NCBI RefSeq assembly: GCF_041821045.1
Contig: NZ_JBGUAW010000010.1
Coordinates: forward strand, 1 to 64,000
DNA: 64,000 nt
Origin: Thiohalorhabdus sp. Cl-TMA
GTDB lineage: Bacteria; Pseudomonadota; Gammaproteobacteria; Thiohalorhabdales; Thiohalorhabdaceae
Direction of reading: 5' to 3'
Positions within the stretch are counted from its first letter, which is position 1. Every line of letters begins with the position of its first letter. Both the position numbers and the translations under genes were made by a program. The notes under the pieces were generated by a model. That model was not told where the DNA came from, did no database searches, and was given only the letters and a program-made list of their open reading frames with translations. Shown piece after piece: positions 28,723 through 36,287 of the stretch.

Positions 28723-28803
28723 CCGGAGCCTCGATGAGGGGGGGTCGGGAATTCGGGGAATTCCCGGAGCGGGGCCTTGGCGCGGATCAGGATGGATGGG
28801 TGT

Positions 28804-31071
28804 ATGGAGACGGCCAAAAAAGGGAAAAGACCGAATCTCGGCGAAAAATTGCTGGAAAAGGGGCTGATTGCCGAGCAGACCCTCGCGGACGCCCGTTCCC
28901 AGGCAGGGAAGACCAAACAGGCCTTCGAAGAATTCCTGGTGACCCAGGGCTACGTCCGGGAGGAGGATCTCCTTCCGCTCCTGCCGGAGCTGTATCACAT
29001 CCCGCTCGTCGACCTGAACGACCTCACAATCCGCTCGGATGCGGCCAGCCTGCTGCCGTACGAGATCGCCAACAAATACCGCGTCCTGCCCCTTGGACAG
29101 CGACGGGGAACCGTGGTGCTCGCCATGCGCGAGGCCCACAACATCCGGTTGGTGGACGAGCTGCGCTTCCACGTGGGCCGTCCGGTGCAGACGGTGTACG
29201 CACCCCTCAAGGACATCGAGGCCAAGCTGGGCGATCTCTACGGAGCCGGCGATGCGGCGCTCGTAAGCGGCGACGACAGTAGCGCCTTCTCCGAGGCGCT
29301 CGAGGACATGGAGGTGGAGGAGGGGCCCGGCGAGGAAGACCAGCCGGAAGAGGCCGCCGTGCGCGAGGAGAGCAGCTCCTCGCCCATGGTCAAGCTGGTG
29401 AACGAGATCCTGCTGCGCGCAGTCCAGAAGGGCGCCTCGGACATCCATCTGGAGTCCGCCGAGAGCTCGTTGGTGGTCCGGTTCCGGGTGGACGGCGTGC
29501 TTCAGGTGATCCGGCGTCTGCCCAAGAAGGTGCAGAACGCCGTCATTTCGCGCATCAAGGTCCTCGGCGGCATGGATATCTCCGATTCCCGCCGCCCGCA
29601 GGACGGGCGCCTGAAGATGCGCCTGAAGGAGAAGAACCTGGACGTGCGCATCTCCACCCTGCCCACCTTCTGGGGCGAGAAGGTGGTGATGCGCATACTG
29701 GACCAGTCCGGGGTGGGCCTGGACCTGGATGTGCTCGGTTTCCTGCGCGCCGAGCGCGAGCAGATCGAGAGCATTATGCGCCAGCCCCAGGGGATGATGC
29801 TGGTGACCGGGCCAACCGGCTCCGGCAAGACCACCACCCTGTATTCGGTCTTATCGGCCATCAACACCGAGGACATCAACATCATCACCGTGGAGGATCC
29901 GGTGGAGTTCCAGCTCCCCGGCATCAACCAGGTGCCCGTGAACCCCAAGGCGGGCATGACCTTCGCGGCCGGCCTGCGTTCCATCCTGCGCCAGGACCCC
30001 AACGTCATCATGGTGGGCGAGGTCCGGGATCAGGAAACCGCGGAGATCGCCCTGGAGGCCGCGGAAACCGGCCACATGGTCTTCTCCACGCTGCACACTA
30101 CCTCCGCGACCGGGGCGGTGACCCGCCTCATGGACATGGAGGTGCCCGCCTATCTGCTCGCCTCCAGCCTTTCCGGGGTGGTGGCCCAGCGGCTGCTGCG
30201 GCGCAATTGCCCGGACTGCAGCGAGCCGGTGGATATCGGAGAAGGCCTGCGCCAGAAGTACAACATCCCCGAGCACATCACCTTCTACGAGGGCCGAGGG
30301 TGCTCCACCTGCGACGGCCAGGGCAAGAAGGGCCGCATGGGCGTCTACGAGATGCTCATTCCCAACCGGGAGGTGATTGACGGCATCTATTCCGAGGCCA
30401 CCGAGTCCGAGCTGGTGGAGCGGGCGCGCCGCTCCGGCATGAACCTGATGTTCGAGGACGGTCTAGTGAAGGCCATGCGCGGCGCCGTGGCCTTCAGCGA
30501 CGTGCTCAATACCGTCGGTGCGCCCACGGGCGTGAACATTGACGCGGAACGCCTGCTGGAGCAGGCTGACCTGCCCTGGGAGGATCGGGGGCTCACAGCG
30601 GTCCGGAAGAAGAAGCGGGAAGCGGACGAGCCCGACACCATCCTGGTGGTGGACGACTCCCGCACCATCCGCGACATGAGCCGGTTCGTCCTGGAGAGCG
30701 AAGGATTCCGCGTGATCCAGGCCGAGGACGGCAAGGAAGGCTTCGAGGTCCTTTGCAAGGAGATGCCCGACCTCGTCCTCACCGATATGCAGATGCCGAA
30801 CCTCGACGGCGACGAGCTGATCCAGAAGATGAAGAGTGATCCCGGGCTCGCCCGGATTCCCGTAGTGGTACTGACCTCCAAGGAAGGAGAGGAGACCGAA
30901 GCCGGAGTCCTGGGGCACGGAGCCGACGATTTCATCAACAAGCCCATCGAGCCCATGACGCTCACGGCCCGGGTCAAGAAGATCCTCGCCACCTACCACC
31001 AGTTCTACGGCGAGGAGGGGAAGGGCTCGGGCTCGGACGATGACCTGCCCAAGCAGGTGGTCTCCCAGTGA
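28804..31071 (+). CDS. PilB/GspE-type ATPase fused to a CheY-like receiver
   Basis: The 755-residue protein joins a type IV pilus/type II secretion assembly ATPase to a response-regulator receiver. In order: an MshEN N-domain (about 12-145), an acidic linker, the GspE N2 domain, Walker A GPTGSGKTT at 336-344, the Walker B region IMVGEVRD with Glu406, and the zinc tetra-Cys (Cys469, 472, 500, 503) that marks extension-type PilB/GspE rather than PilT. A Lys-rich linker leads to a receiver at about 611-735 with acidic pair Asp617/618, phospho-acceptor Asp661 (VLTDMQMP), Thr691 and Lys713. ATG 28804 has AGGATGG upstream; ATG 28792 is an alternative. CheW, a chemoreceptor and CheA follow without terminators, so the receiver is probably phosphorylated by that CheA to control the motor. 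Confidence 0.9.
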   Translation: METAKKGKRPNLGEKLLEKGLIAEQTLADARSQAGKTKQAFEEFLVTQGYVREEDLLPLLPELYHIPLVDLNDLTIRSDAASLLPYEIANKYRVLPLGQRRGTVVLAMREAHNIRLVDELRFHVGRPVQTVYAPLKDIEAKLGDLYGAGDAALVSGDDSSAFSEALEDMEVEEGPGEEDQPEEAAVREESSSSPMVKLVNEILLRAVQKGASDIHLESAESSLVVRFRVDGVLQVIRRLPKKVQNAVISRIKVLGGMDISDSRRPQDGRLKMRLKEKNLDVRISTLPTFWGEKVVMRILDQSGVGLDLDVLGFLRAEREQIESIMRQPQGMMLVTGPTGSGKTTTLYSVLSAINTEDINIITVEDPVEFQLPGINQVPVNPKAGMTFAAGLRSILRQDPNVIMVGEVRDQETAEIALEAAETGHMVFSTLHTTSATGAVTRLMDMEVPAYLLASSLSGVVAQRLLRRNCPDCSEPVDIGEGLRQKYNIPEHITFYEGRGCSTCDGQGKKGRMGVYEMLIPNREVIDGIYSEATESELVERARRSGMNLMFEDGLVKAMRGAVAFSDVLNTVGAPTGVNIDAERLLEQADLPWEDRGLTAVRKKKREADEPDTILVVDDSRTIRDMSRFVLESEGFRVIQAEDGKEGFEVLCKEMPDLVLTDMQMPNLDGDELIQKMKSDPGLARIPVVVLTSKEGEETEAGVLGHGADDFINKPIEPMTLTARVKKILATYHQFYGEEGKGSGSDDDLPKQVVSQ

Positions 31072-31529
31072 CTCCCCCAGAGGCCTCCGTATCCGCCGTA
31101 CCCCCCGAAGCGGGCCAGGGAGAGGGCCGCTTCACCATCATCGGGCTCGCCGGCTGGTATTTCGCCGTGCCGCTGGAACGGTCCGCCGGCTCCATGGAAG
31201 CCGTCACTCTGACGCGGGCCCCCATGGCCCCCGAGGCGGTTCTCGGCCTGACGCACCTCCAGGGGCGAATCCTGACCGTGCTCGACCTGCGTCACCTGCT
31301 CGGGCTGGGGCGGGGCGGTCCGCCCCGGAGGTTCTTCCTGGTGAACGACGAGGACGAGCAGGTCGGCCTGGTGGTGGATTCCGTCGAGGATATTGTCCTG
31401 GTATCCCCCCTGAATCTTGACTCGATACAGGTGGAGCTGCCGCCCGGCGTGCGGGCCAACGCCTCGGGCTTCTTCCGCTGGCGGGGGCATCCGGTTGTGA
31501 ACCTTTCCGTGGAACGGCTCCTCAAGTAA
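31068..31529 (+). CDS. CheW-like coupling protein (PilI-like)
   Basis: This 153-residue single-domain CheW protein would bridge receptor and CheA. It has an extended N-terminus, then the beta-barrel pattern GWYFAVPLERSAGSME, VLGLTHLQGRILTVLDLRHL (the conserved hydrophobic core with G-x-I-L-x-V-L-D-L) and VGLVVDSVEDI. GTG 31068 overlaps the ATPase-receiver stop by 4 bases, so the two are coupled. It lies 66 bases before the receptor gene. Confidence 0.88.
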   Translation: MTPPEASVSAVPPEAGQGEGRFTIIGLAGWYFAVPLERSAGSMEAVTLTRAPMAPEAVLGLTHLQGRILTVLDLRHLLGLGRGGPPRRFFLVNDEDEQVGLVVDSVEDIVLVSPLNLDSIQVELPPGVRANASGFFRWRGHPVVNLSVERLLK

Positions 31530-31595
31530 CTCGGGGACGGTGGAGGCGGTGTACCGGGCTTCGCCCGACTGGGGCTCATCAAAAAGGGATGATGC

Positions 31596-33035
31596 ATGTC
31601 CACGCTAAACATCCGGCAACGAATCCTGCTGGGTATCAGCGCCATCCTGGTGCTGTGGATCCTGATCGTTGCCGTCACCTACATCGTGCAGAACCGGCAG
31701 GCGGAGCTGCTGGAGCAGTACTCCCAGGCGAACCGGCAGGCCGAGGCGGTCACCCGGATGCAGCTCGCTCTGGTGGGTCTGCTGCCGCCCATGAACGGTT
31801 TCCTCCAGTCCCTGGACTCCGAGCACCAGTCCGATTTCGAGGCCGAGCTCCAGAACTACAAGAAGGCCATGAATCGGGTGGAGCAGATTCCGAGCCTGCC
31901 CGAAAAGGCCCGGACCAACATCAAGGAGATCAAGGACCTGGTTGGCAACATCCGCTCCACCGGATCGCAGGTCTTCAAGGTGGACGAGATCACCTCCACC
32001 GAGGAGTCCATGACGACCATCGCCGAGTCCCTGGTCTACCTCGCCAAGGAGAAGGGGGATCAGCTCCGGCGGACCCTGACCCGGCGCGCGGAGAATCTGC
32101 AGGAGGCGGCGCGGGACCAGTCCCGGTTCGCCATTCTCGTCAGCCTGGGGGTCACAGGGGCCGCCGCGCTGATCGCCCTGCCGCTGACGTTCATCATGAT
32201 GCGCTGGATCCGGCGCACCGTGGATGATCTCCGCTCCCGGGTACAGGAGGAGTCCTCGGGCATCCTGGAGTCGGTGGAGAGTCAGGTATCCTTCGCGGCC
32301 CAGCAGGAACAGGCCATGGGCACCATGACCCAGTCCATGGAGCAGATGAGCGGCGTCTCACGCGACATCGCCCAGTCCGCCTCCTCGGTGGATGAGGTAG
32401 CCCGCGAGACCCGGGAGACCGCCCGCAATGGCGCCAAGGATGTTGAGCGGGTGGTGCGCTCCATGGAGGAAATCCGCAACGGCGTCCGCGACATCAACAA
32501 CAAGATCACTCATACGGGCACCAAGGCCCAGCAGATCGCCGATGCGGTGGCCTCCATCGACGAGATAGCCGACGAGACCCACATGCTGGCCCTGAATGCC
32601 GCCATCGAGTCGGCCGCTGCCGGCGAGTACGGCCAGCGTTTCGGCGTGGTGGCGGCCGAGGTGCGGCGCCTCGCAGAGCGCACCCGCGAATTCACCGACG
32701 AGGCCAACCGCCTCATGCAGGAGGTGCGCGCCTCCACCCAATCCTCCATCGAGGCCACCGAGGCGGGGGTCCAGTCGGTGGAGCAGGGCGTGGACATGAC
32801 CAAGCAGGCCGGGCAGGCGCTTTCCGGGATCCTGGACATGACCGACCGCACCGCCCAGGCCACCCAGCAGATCGCCACCTCCACCGAGGAACAGGACGCT
32901 TCCACCGCCGAGGTCCGGCAGCAGCTGGAGGATATCTCCATCAAGCTCAAGGAGAGCGCGCAGGGCCTGCAGCGCTCCAAGGAGATCGCCTACCGCCTCA
33001 ACGAGGTCTCCGACCGTATGAGCCAGGAGCTCTGA
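31596..33035 (+). CDS. Methyl-accepting chemotaxis protein without HAMP
   Basis: The 479-residue receptor has TM1 at about 11-31, a helical periplasmic domain of about 145 residues, TM2 at about 178-202 and a cytoplasmic signalling hairpin with its tip near 326-345. After TM2 the sequence goes straight into coiled coil; I see no HAMP pattern. The tip reads DETHMLALNAAIESAAAGE: the usual QTN is ETH and the Arg of AARAGE is Ala, while the LALNAA core and Glu are kept. It is followed 9 bases later by the cheA hybrid. It probably senses an envelope or surface cue for the fused ATPase, like PilJ; the ligand is unknown. Confidence 0.9.
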   Translation: MSTLNIRQRILLGISAILVLWILIVAVTYIVQNRQAELLEQYSQANRQAEAVTRMQLALVGLLPPMNGFLQSLDSEHQSDFEAELQNYKKAMNRVEQIPSLPEKARTNIKEIKDLVGNIRSTGSQVFKVDEITSTEESMTTIAESLVYLAKEKGDQLRRTLTRRAENLQEAARDQSRFAILVSLGVTGAAALIALPLTFIMMRWIRRTVDDLRSRVQEESSGILESVESQVSFAAQQEQAMGTMTQSMEQMSGVSRDIAQSASSVDEVARETRETARNGAKDVERVVRSMEEIRNGVRDINNKITHTGTKAQQIADAVASIDEIADETHMLALNAAIESAAAGEYGQRFGVVAAEVRRLAERTREFTDEANRLMQEVRASTQSSIEATEAGVQSVEQGVDMTKQAGQALSGILDMTDRTAQATQQIATSTEEQDASTAEVRQQLEDISIKLKESAQGLQRSKEIAYRLNEVSDRMSQEL

Positions 33036-33044
33036 GGCGTCCGC

Positions 33045-36000
33045 ATGGCCTCTGGATTTGACTTCTCCGCGTTCATCGCCGGATTCCAGGAGGAGGCCGA
33101 AGAGCGTCTCCATGCAATCGAGTCCACTCTGGTGGACCTGGAAAAGGGCGGGGTGGACGCCGATCAGCTGGAGCGCTTGCGCCGGGACGCCCATTCGGTG
33201 AAGGGCTCGGCGAACATGCTTCAGCTACGGGACATCGGGGAAACCGCTCATGTCCTGGAGGATGCCTTCGCCCACCTGCGCGACGGCACCGCCGCGCCCC
33301 ACCGTGGCTACATGGAGCTCATGTTCGAGCTCCTCGATGCCCTCCGCTCGCGTATCGGCAATGCAGAGGATCCGGAATCGGAGCAGCTCGACCCCGAGGC
33401 CCTGCGGGCGCGCCTGGAGAGGCTGGATGCCGAGGGCGAGGCTCCTTCGGAGTCCGATGCGGCCCCCGTGGCGCCGGAGGCTACTCCCGAGCAGCCGGAT
33501 GTGGATACGCAATCCGAGGAGATGCAGGAGTCTGCGGAAGCCGGTGTGCACCAGATGGACTGGTCCGAGCTCATCCCGGGCCTGCGGCAGGACGCCGAGC
33601 CGGTCCTGCACGGTATTCAGGAGGTGCTGGGCTCCGACGACCCCATGGCCGCGGCCTCCGATTCCTTCCTGGACCAGACCGAATCCCTGGCTATGTCCAT
33701 GCGCCAGGTGGGACTCGAGGACGCTGCCGAGGCCCTGGATCTGGTGGCCGCTGTCCTGGAATCTCCGGCGGTCGGTGGCCTGCCGGCCTCTCTGGGAGAG
33801 CTTCTGCAGAATCTGGTGCATCGGGTGCGGCGGCGGCTGGAGCATGCCGACCAGCCGGATGCCCAGTCCTTGGACCGGAAGCGGATCCGACAGGCGCGCG
33901 GTTTGCTGGAGCAATGGGGCATGGTGCAGGGCCCGTCCGGGGAAAGAGCGCCGTCGGAAACCCTGGCGCAGCCCCCGGACCCTTCGGAGACGCCGGAGTC
34001 CGTGGAGAAGGACGGGGAGGTGCCTGCCATTGCCGAGCCGGGGGCCGCGTCCGCCCGGAGCGCGGCCCGAAGCGGCTCGGGCGTTGACGTCTCCGCCTTC
34101 CTGGAAGGCTTCCAGGCCGAAGCCCTGGAAGAGCTGGCCGTGATCCAGGACGGCCTGCTGAAGGCGGAGCAGGCGGCGCTCCCGGCGGAGGATCGGGACG
34201 AAATGCGGCAGAAGGTCCACAGTCTCAAGGGCTCGGCCAATATGCTCGGCCTGGAGGACATCGGTGGGGCCGCGGAGATCCTCGAGGACGGGGTCGCCCG
34301 CCTGGATGATAGCGGCGGTGTCGGGGTTGAAGCCCTGCTTTCGCTCCACGACGCGCTCCGCGCCACGGTGGAGCAAGTCCAGGATGGGGAACGGACTCCC
34401 CTGGATGTCTCCGCCTGGGCGAAGCGCATGGAACAGGGCGCGTCGGAATCGCCGGCGCAGCCGGCTTCCGCGCCCCGCGAGCCGGAACAGCCGGGAACGG
34501 CGCCGGGCGGAGGGCAGAAGGAGGCCGGTGACGGACGCAGCGCCGGCACCAATCGGGGGACTCTGCGCGTCAGCGCCGATCGCCTGGAGCGCCTCAGTGA
34601 AGGGGTGATCGGTCTGGCCATGGACCGGGCCACGCAGGAGGACCGCCGCGCCGAGATGGACCAGATCATCGCGGATTTCCGGGCCTTGCGCCGGCAATGG
34701 GAATGGTTCGAGGGGATCCTTCCGGAATCCGGACCCCTGGTGCAGCAGCAGAAGAGCTTCTCCAACCAGCTGGACAACCTGTCCCAGTCCCTGAACCGGT
34801 TCCGGCAGGAAACCGAGCTGGAAATGGCCGCCCGCCACGGGCTTTACGACGAGATCCACGAGCGGGTCATGGCGCTCATGGTTTCCCCCCTGGGCACCAT
34901 CTTCTCCGTGCTTCCCCGTTCCGCCCGGGATCTCGCCCAGCGATTCCAGAAGCGCGTTGAGCTCTCCATCGAGGGCAGCGAGATCGAGCTGGAGCGGAAG
35001 AACGTGGATGCGCTCCTCGAGCCCCTGGTGCATCTGGTGACCAACGCTATCTCGCACGGAATCGAGGCGCCCGAGGAGCGCGAGGCCGCCGGGAAGTCCC
35101 CGGTTGGCCGGATCCGGGTGCAAGCGGAGCACGTGGGCGGCGAGGTGGCCATCTCGGTGACCGACGACGGCAGGGGTATCGACTACGAGAAGGTCCGGGA
35201 GACCGCTATCCGTACCGGGGTCACCACCGCCGCCGAGGCGGAGAGCATGCTGCCCTACGATCTGCTGCAGATGCTGTTCCGCCCCGGCTTCTCCACGAAG
35301 GAGGAAGTGAACCAGATCTCCGGCCGCGGTATCGGCATGAACGCGGTGCGCGACGCGGTGCAGCGCATGACGGGCTCCATCCAGGTGGACTCTGAAGTGG
35401 GCAGGGGGACCACGTTCACCCTGAACATCCCGGTTTCGACCGCCGTCCAGCGGGTGCTCAAGTTCCGGGTGGGAGAGGAGGTTTTCGGGGTTTTGGCCAA
35501 CCAGGTGGAGCGTATCCTCGGACTCCACGAGGTGGTGCTCACGGAAGCCCGCGGACAGCGCTTCTTCCACTATCAGGGCAACCAGGTTCCCGCCACCTGG
35601 CTGAGCGAGCTCTTTGGCACCGGGGACGAGGGAATCCGGGACACCAAATCCCTCCGTCTGGTGGTGGTGCGCCACCTGGAAGGCTATATCGGCCTGGTGG
35701 TCCACGAGGTGCTGGAGGAAGCGCAGGCGGTGGTCAAGGATGTCACCAACTACCTGCGGCGGCACTCCGTGCAGGGGCTGATCGGCACCACCATCTCCGG
35801 GTCGGGGGAGGTCCAGCTACTGCTGGAGCCCACGGGCATCAAGGAGATGGAGCGGACCTCGCCGCTATCCCTGCACATGGGCGAGCGTTGGCTGGAGGAT
35901 CCCCTGCGCGGCCTCCGGGTGCTACTGGTGGAGGATTCGCCGCTGGCGCGGCAGATGGAGCGGGCGGTCCTGGAGAACGCCGGGATGGAGGTTGATACGG

Positions 36001-36287
36001 CCGTGGACGGCCTGGACGCCCTGGACCGTATGGAGGTGCGTTTCCCGGACATAGTCATCACAGACGTGGAGATGCCGCGCATGGACGGCTACGACCTCCT
36101 GCGGAAACTGCGGGACGACAATCAATATCGCGGGGTTCCGGTGTTCATGGTCACCTCCCGGGACAGCGAGGAGGATCGGGGGACCGCCCAGCACTTGGGC
36201 GCCGACGGCTTCCTCAACAAGATGGACCTGCAGTCCGGTGACCTGATTGGAGAGATCCGCAATCGGCTTGAGCAGCTCTATGCCTGA
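33045..36287 (+). CDS. CheA/ChpA-type hybrid histidine kinase with receiver
   Basis: The 1080-residue protein has Hpt-1 with His50 (AHSVKGSANML), a second region at about 170-290 that resembles Hpt in helix pattern (LAMSMRQVGLEDAAEALD) but has Gln where the His should be, and Hpt-2 with His392 (VHSLKGSANMLGLEDIG). After these come the dimerisation helices, an HATPase core with the N-box near Asn667 (HLVTNAISHGIE) and TDDGRGIDYEKV, a CheW-like domain at about 804-935 and a C-terminal receiver with phospho-acceptor Asp1007 (VITDVEMPRMDGYD). The layout is a reduced ChpA of the twitching Pil-Chp system. Its receiver and that of the fused ATPase are the only receivers in the cluster. Confidence 0.92.
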   Translation: MASGFDFSAFIAGFQEEAEERLHAIESTLVDLEKGGVDADQLERLRRDAHSVKGSANMLQLRDIGETAHVLEDAFAHLRDGTAAPHRGYMELMFELLDALRSRIGNAEDPESEQLDPEALRARLERLDAEGEAPSESDAAPVAPEATPEQPDVDTQSEEMQESAEAGVHQMDWSELIPGLRQDAEPVLHGIQEVLGSDDPMAAASDSFLDQTESLAMSMRQVGLEDAAEALDLVAAVLESPAVGGLPASLGELLQNLVHRVRRRLEHADQPDAQSLDRKRIRQARGLLEQWGMVQGPSGERAPSETLAQPPDPSETPESVEKDGEVPAIAEPGAASARSAARSGSGVDVSAFLEGFQAEALEELAVIQDGLLKAEQAALPAEDRDEMRQKVHSLKGSANMLGLEDIGGAAEILEDGVARLDDSGGVGVEALLSLHDALRATVEQVQDGERTPLDVSAWAKRMEQGASESPAQPASAPREPEQPGTAPGGGQKEAGDGRSAGTNRGTLRVSADRLERLSEGVIGLAMDRATQEDRRAEMDQIIADFRALRRQWEWFEGILPESGPLVQQQKSFSNQLDNLSQSLNRFRQETELEMAARHGLYDEIHERVMALMVSPLGTIFSVLPRSARDLAQRFQKRVELSIEGSEIELERKNVDALLEPLVHLVTNAISHGIEAPEEREAAGKSPVGRIRVQAEHVGGEVAISVTDDGRGIDYEKVRETAIRTGVTTAAEAESMLPYDLLQMLFRPGFSTKEEVNQISGRGIGMNAVRDAVQRMTGSIQVDSEVGRGTTFTLNIPVSTAVQRVLKFRVGEEVFGVLANQVERILGLHEVVLTEARGQRFFHYQGNQVPATWLSELFGTGDEGIRDTKSLRLVVVRHLEGYIGLVVHEVLEEAQAVVKDVTNYLRRHSVQGLIGTTISGSGEVQLLLEPTGIKEMERTSPLSLHMGERWLEDPLRGLRVLLVEDSPLARQMERAVLENAGMEVDTAVDGLDALDRMEVRFPDIVITDVEMPRMDGYDLLRKLRDDNQYRGVPVFMVTSRDSEEDRGTAQHLGADGFLNKMDLQSGDLIGEIRNRLEQLYA

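Follow-up and report, generated by a model that had tools for sequence, protein, structure and literature searches.

In the Pil-Chp system of Pseudomonas, a methyl-accepting chemoreceptor (MCP), the coupling protein CheW and a large CheA of hybrid type, with multiple Hpt domains and a C-terminal receiver (REC) domain, constitute a chemosensory pathway; its presumed output is the pilus extension motor. Its receivers PilG and PilH are separate proteins, which reviews present as controlling the motor ATPase PilB (PMC12632253, PMC11656802), and the 2024 review among them records no reported interaction of either with PilB in P. aeruginosa (PMC11656802). In Synechocystis, the PATAN-CheY regulators PixE and PixG bind PilB1 (PMC7690835, PMC10519157). 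A second extension motor, TfpB, has been described from Acinetobacter baylyi as a distinct PilB homolog without pilC synteny; it normally coexists with PilB, and one species with type IV pilus components has only TfpB (PMC8213720). Here, we describe a chemosensory operon of Thiohalorhabdus sp. Cl-TMA (assembly GCF_041821045.1), lying within positions 1-64,000 of contig NZ_JBGUAW010000010.1 (this whole stretch of 64,000 nucleotides is hereinafter the window), in which a receiver is fused to the C-terminus of a PilB/GspE-type ATPase.

Like Pil-Chp, this operon combines an MCP, a CheW and a large CheA of hybrid type (multiple Hpt domains, C-terminal REC domain), and we likewise propose a pilus extension motor as its output. 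Unlike Pil-Chp, it has no separate PilG or PilH that we could find, the receiver being carried by the motor; further, its kinase falls outside the ChpA clade, its receptor is not PilJ-sized, and it lacks PilK and ChpB. The PATAN-CheY regulators resemble our proposal in that a receiver protein of chemotaxis-like or light-responsive systems exerts its effect on the extension motor itself, but they bind PilB in trans via PATAN, whereas the receiver here is covalently attached and no PATAN domain was detected. The TfpB-only species is paralleled by the genus Thiohalorhabdus, which has the fused ATPase and no canonical pilB in its pil locus; however, the fused ATPase belongs to another family than TfpB and sits in a chemosensory operon, and the searched text of PMC8213720 mentions no receiver. 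The parts are of known kinds, and what is new is their covalent arrangement and its conservation. Our literature search returned no account of a receiver-pilus ATPase fusion or of this operon, which is weak evidence, as most subscription journals lay outside that search. From the sequences, we consider it moderately probable that the operon encodes a compact chemosensory pathway with a pilus extension motor as its output, switched directly by phosphotransfer from CheA.

The ATPase-receiver fusion and its conservation

The MshEN, T2SSE and Response_reg domains of the fusion protein each score well over their Pfam cut-offs (Table 1). The ATPase core has a Walker A box (GPTGSGKT, residues 345-352) and the zinc cysteines C478, C481, C509 and C512, all invariant across nine aligned family members, and the receiver has the acidic pair D626/D627, the phospho-acceptor D670, T700 and K722 (numbered from the TTG at 28777; ribosome-site evidence favors neither this start nor the ATG at 28804). 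The first-pass annotation, made from the letters of the window alone, had read here an ATPase with a zinc tetra-Cys, Walker boxes and a complete receiver, and the Pfam domains and residues bear this out; the receiver positions that it counted from the ATG (617/618, 661, 691 and 713) are these same residues. It had also placed CheW, an MCP and a CheA closely downstream, and they indeed occupy 31068-36287, with a 4-nt overlap between the ATPase stop and the CheW start. Both Hpt domains of this CheA carry H-x-x-K-G-x-A, and a CheA with Hpt, HATPase and CheW domains, a separate CheW and an MCP, the set by which CheA-type chemosensory systems are recognized, are all present.

The conserved core bears on one alternative, namely that the ATPase now serves in signalling, for instance in the regulation of exopolysaccharide, and no longer as a pilus motor. 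In M. xanthus, PilB is reported to be an exopolysaccharide signalling protein (PMC5544727); however, the invariance of the Walker A and zinc residues in the nine members is as expected of a working motor, and we regard such a conversion as quite improbable.

The acidic pair, phospho-Asp, Thr and Lys of the receiver are intact in 20/20 operon copies. In contrast, a paralog of the fusion ATPase (55% identical) in the two other genomes of the genus, G001 and G002, which is flanked by rlmD and the gsp operon and has no CheA, retains a fused receiver from which the acidic pair and the Thr are missing, and in G001 Glu takes the place of its acceptor Asp. Among the sequence data, this difference speaks most strongly for phosphorylation of the operon receiver by a product of the operon itself.

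The operon is kept in all three genomes of the genus, where the ATPase orthologs are 85% (G001) and 78% (G002, partial) identical to that of the window. In a survey of 369 sampled Gammaproteobacteria, with the two best candidates per genome scored, such that a fusion with a poor score may have escaped detection, a match running through the receiver was seen only in these three genomes, the others ending near residue 580-610. That it might be an oddity of the genus was overturned by a phylum-wide search: within a Pseudomonadota sample, a second class and a single genome from yet another lineage (G369) also have the fusion, at 41-49% identity. Of 78 genomes from the class of G372, 50 have a receiver-bearing ATPase match (49 full or nearly full length and one C-terminal fragment), and three further genomes have a match truncated before the receiver. 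In G400 (C25:132496-133971), an ATPase of the fused family ends before the receiver inside the contig and is possibly a decaying copy.

Seventeen loci extracted from two other Pseudomonadota lineages share the gene order of the window, namely ATPase-REC, CheW, MCP and CheA (the last if the contig extends far enough), on one strand and with variable flanking genes; their ATPase and CheA are 31-48% identical to those of the window, and in several of them CheW was assigned by position, its similarity being too low for a match. The architecture singled out by the first-pass annotation is thus found in other lineages with the same neighbors downstream. Across the 20 copies (three in the genus and 17 elsewhere), the ATPase-CheW junction ranges from -4 to +38 nt. 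CheA is partial in L249, L251 and L049 and missing in L257 because the contigs end there; that of L263 lacks the N-terminal Hpt in the open reading frame (ORF) as called, and the G369 locus has an extra small ORF between CheW and MCP. The pairwise distances of ATPase and CheA are correlated (r=0.85, Mantel p<=0.0005; other gene pairs r=0.59-0.92), which partly reflects shared species history and is support for, not proof of, co-evolution. A receiver-pattern scan of named genomes recovered mostly alphaproteobacterial regulators and one fused copy, in a metagenome-assembled genome of the genus (JAHEOG010000073.1), and a plasmid search found no full-length fusion among the best 5000 records. G549, from the other class, has two operon copies on different contigs (L249 and L257).

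Receivers are promiscuous fusion partners in general, and beyond this we found no point in favor of the alternative that the protein is an ordinary PilB with a tail unrelated to the neighboring CheA. The operon is conserved across lineages, the tail is absent from the other sampled Gammaproteobacteria, and the paralog that lies outside the CheA operon has lost catalytic residues. Hence, a common tail of ordinary PilB without a link to CheA, an outcome that the first-pass annotation had allowed for, is not what is seen: the CheA neighbor is conserved, and the eroded receiver is that of the paralog outside the CheA operon. This alternative is already largely refuted, and we consider it very improbable.

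Canonical PilB shares with the fusion ATPase the MshEN and T2SSE domains and the tetra-Cys. However, the latter has a C-terminal REC domain, is not beside pilC and falls below the cut-off of the NCBIfam PilB model, which is its best NCBIfam match (TIGR02538; 584.4 bits against 675.65). It likewise falls below those for GspE (TIGR02533; 541.9 against 630.25, the true GspE of the genome scoring 682) and TfpB (NF053534; 423.5 bits against 850). In quick trees, which do not settle the relations among the large clades, the operon ATPases and the paralog form one clade (SH-aLRT 99) outside PilB of two classes (SH-aLRT 100), MshE (SH-aLRT 99) and GspE (SH-aLRT 100). The operon kinases also form one clade (SH-aLRT 100), apart from the ChpA clade (SH-aLRT 100) and from short hybrid CheAs, and the receiver lies outside the PilG (100/97, SH-aLRT), PilH (100/99, SH-aLRT) and ChpA-REC clades. 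Since ATPase and CheA each form a clade of their own, the system is neither a PilB with a tail nor Pil-Chp; nor, given the positions of kinase and receiver, is it a fused Pil-Chp.

Three candidate identities were discarded on these grounds. A pilG or pilH fused to pilB is excluded by the REC tree. A true ChpA was suggested by an early tree that joined the kinase to ChpA (support 87), and adding kinases of other lineages yielded the separate clade; the "ChpA-like" label of the first-pass annotation is hence only loosely right. A diverged PilB ortholog was suggested by trees without the other lineages, which placed the ATPase near PilB or MshE depending on sampling, and with those lineages included it forms its own clade.

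As for the remaining features of the operon, its CheA has no separate H-kinase_dim match, unlike the chemotaxis CheA on contig C7 of the same genome. The flanking genes are ald on the upstream side and ftsK on the downstream side, as they are in G001. Scans for sigma-70 promoters and terminators in the region gave chance level only. The paralog offers a natural, catalytically dead comparison for the operon receiver, and in G002 a small ORF, PilZ-like as judged from its sequence, lies between it and rlmD.

Table 1. Coordinates of the operon features (window positions) and of the genus paralog.
Feature	Position	Strand	Details
ATPase-receiver fusion (MshEN + T2SSE + REC)	28777..31071	+	764 aa from TTG 28777; 755 aa from ATG 28804
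MshEN domain	28993..29253 (residues 73-159)	+	Pfam E 4e-18
T2SSE ATPase domain, Walker A and zinc tetra-Cys	29368..30507 (residues 198-577)	+	Pfam E 3e-136
Receiver domain (Response_reg)	30640..30978 (residues 622-734)	+	Pfam E 9e-28
CheW coupling protein, GTG start	31068..31529	+	Pfam E 2e-19
Methyl-accepting chemoreceptor (MCP), 479 aa	31596..33035	+	MCPsignal E 1.5e-35
CheA	33045..36287	+	Hpt-Hpt-HATPase_c-CheW-REC by Pfam
CheA Hpt domains	33078-33350 and 34098-34382	+	motifs HSVKGSA, HSLKGSA
CheA HATPase_c	35022-35435	+	
CheA CheW domain	35454-35840	+	
CheA C-terminal REC	35919-36224	+	
ATPase-REC paralog	L047:9815-12214 (G001); L050:78-2477 (G002)		

The type IV pilus locus and its probable motor

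The Cl-TMA genome (99% complete) has the type IV pilus genes for PilA, C, D, M-Q and T, and no canonical pilB was found in it. On contig C1, pilM-Q lie near 112 kb, pilC, a pilS-like kinase gene, pilR, pilD and coaE near 167 kb, and a pilin gene about 10 kb from the pilC locus. The seven T2SSE matches of this genome are GspE, MshE, the window protein, an orphan GAF-MshEN-T2SSE protein and three shorter PilT-like ATPases, and its platform proteins are PilC, GspF and MshG; GspE is beside GspF and MshE beside MshG, with PilC having no neighboring ATPase. The genes aroE and pilC are direct neighbors in each of the three genomes of the genus (26 nt apart in Cl-TMA; L074:8979-11092, C1), whereas eight loci of other lineages read aroE-pilB-pilC, six of them continuing with a pilS-like gene, pilR and pilD in the stretch read. 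Thus, the very position at which a canonical pilB would be expected lacks one, which by elimination makes the fused ATPase the likely motor of that pilus. It is probably the only extension motor left for the type IV pilus of this genus. The first-pass annotation had remarked that no pilin, PilC or PilM-Q gene is adjacent and had left the machine served unspecified: the former stands within the window, whereas a candidate machine does exist elsewhere in the genome as a pilus without its own pilB. In other lineages, where canonical PilB coexists with the fusion, the latter looks like a second extension motor.

The same inventory offers another destination for the motor, namely an MSHA-type pilus or type II secretion that merely shares regulation by this CheA. 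The genome does have complete msh-like and gsp loci, and the paralog of G001 and G002 adjoins the gsp operon; however, these loci have their dedicated ATPase and platform, with PilC alone lacking an ATPase beside it, and we consider it unlikely that either is the machine served.

Several points weigh against the fused ATPase being the pilus motor. Its clade is weakly placed relative to PilB, MshE and GspE (support 64, as sister to PilB). The other class keeps canonical PilB, such that the fused ATPase is not an obligatory pilus motor there. In the window and the loci examined, the operon is co-located with no pilus gene and the fusion is not beside pilC. Lastly, the orphan GAF-MshEN-T2SSE ATPase on C4 could serve PilC, although no counterpart was seen in either G001 or G002. 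This orphan (L042:7926-10532), with 868 aa, an N-terminal GAF domain and no adjacent platform gene, is itself another candidate for a sensor-fused motor.

A proposed path from chemoreceptor to motor

No PilG or PilH was found in the operon, and a receiver survey of the genome found no pilG/pilH-like stand-alone receiver; of its two short receivers, one is a CheY next to the flagellar-type CheA of C7, and the other, on C9, is a regulator located among hybrid kinases. In G001 no stand-alone receiver was found. Relatives in the same class have pilG and pilH upstream of pilJ and chpA. The C7 cluster (C7:190000-209999; L076) is a separate chemotaxis system with a 1284-aa CheA bearing two CheW domains, CheY, CheR, CheB, MCPs and an apparent FlgM.

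We infer from the above both a phosphotransfer and its effect on the ATPase, as well as the machine served. The MCP and CheW would control autophosphorylation of CheA, whose Hpt histidine would pass the phosphate to D670 in the receiver tail of the hexameric PilB/GspE-type ATPase. The phosphorylated receiver would then change the activity or the recruitment of the ATPase and so switch extension of a type IVa pilus, whose platform PilC, pilin PilA and alignment complex PilM-Q would be those encoded elsewhere in the genome. The C-terminal receiver of CheA possibly acts as a phosphate sink. The retention of the receiver-motor fusion with CheA across lineages argues that the receiver can act on the ATPase directly. 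Environmental signals may thereby switch the motor directly, with no need for the separate messenger protein of known systems. In addition, the c-di-GMP (cyclic di-GMP) motif pair of MshEN, for which PMC12943098 gives the consensus RLGxxL...Q, is degenerate in the aligned operon ATPases, and the NCBIfam model for it matches the MshE of the genome and not the fusion ATPase among the matches listed; the receiver may have replaced this motif as the regulatory input.

Alternatively, the receiver could be a docking tag that tethers the motor to the CheA/MCP array, as polar or local recruitment, with phosphorylation setting binding and position and not catalysis. This would accord with the control of PilB localization by PilG, the Chp output of P. 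aeruginosa (PMC12632253, PMC11656802), and with the T2SSE-REC linker, which is flexible and poorly conserved in the family alignment. However, a fixed covalent 1:1 link would also fit allostery; we hold docking to be possible though rather doubtful.

Returning to direct switching by CheA, we judge the chances evenly balanced that the operon represents an undescribed, horizontally spread chemosensory class in which CheA phosphorylates the motor itself and which, in this genus, has replaced PilB, PilG and PilH. A natural fusion bears on the route by which Chp-type systems reach the extension motor, and this one offers a single polypeptide for measuring phosphorylation state, ATPase activity and localization. 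If our proposal is true, the fused ATPase would represent a second type of alternative extension motor, and Thiohalorhabdus a possible case of the canonical pilB having been displaced by it.

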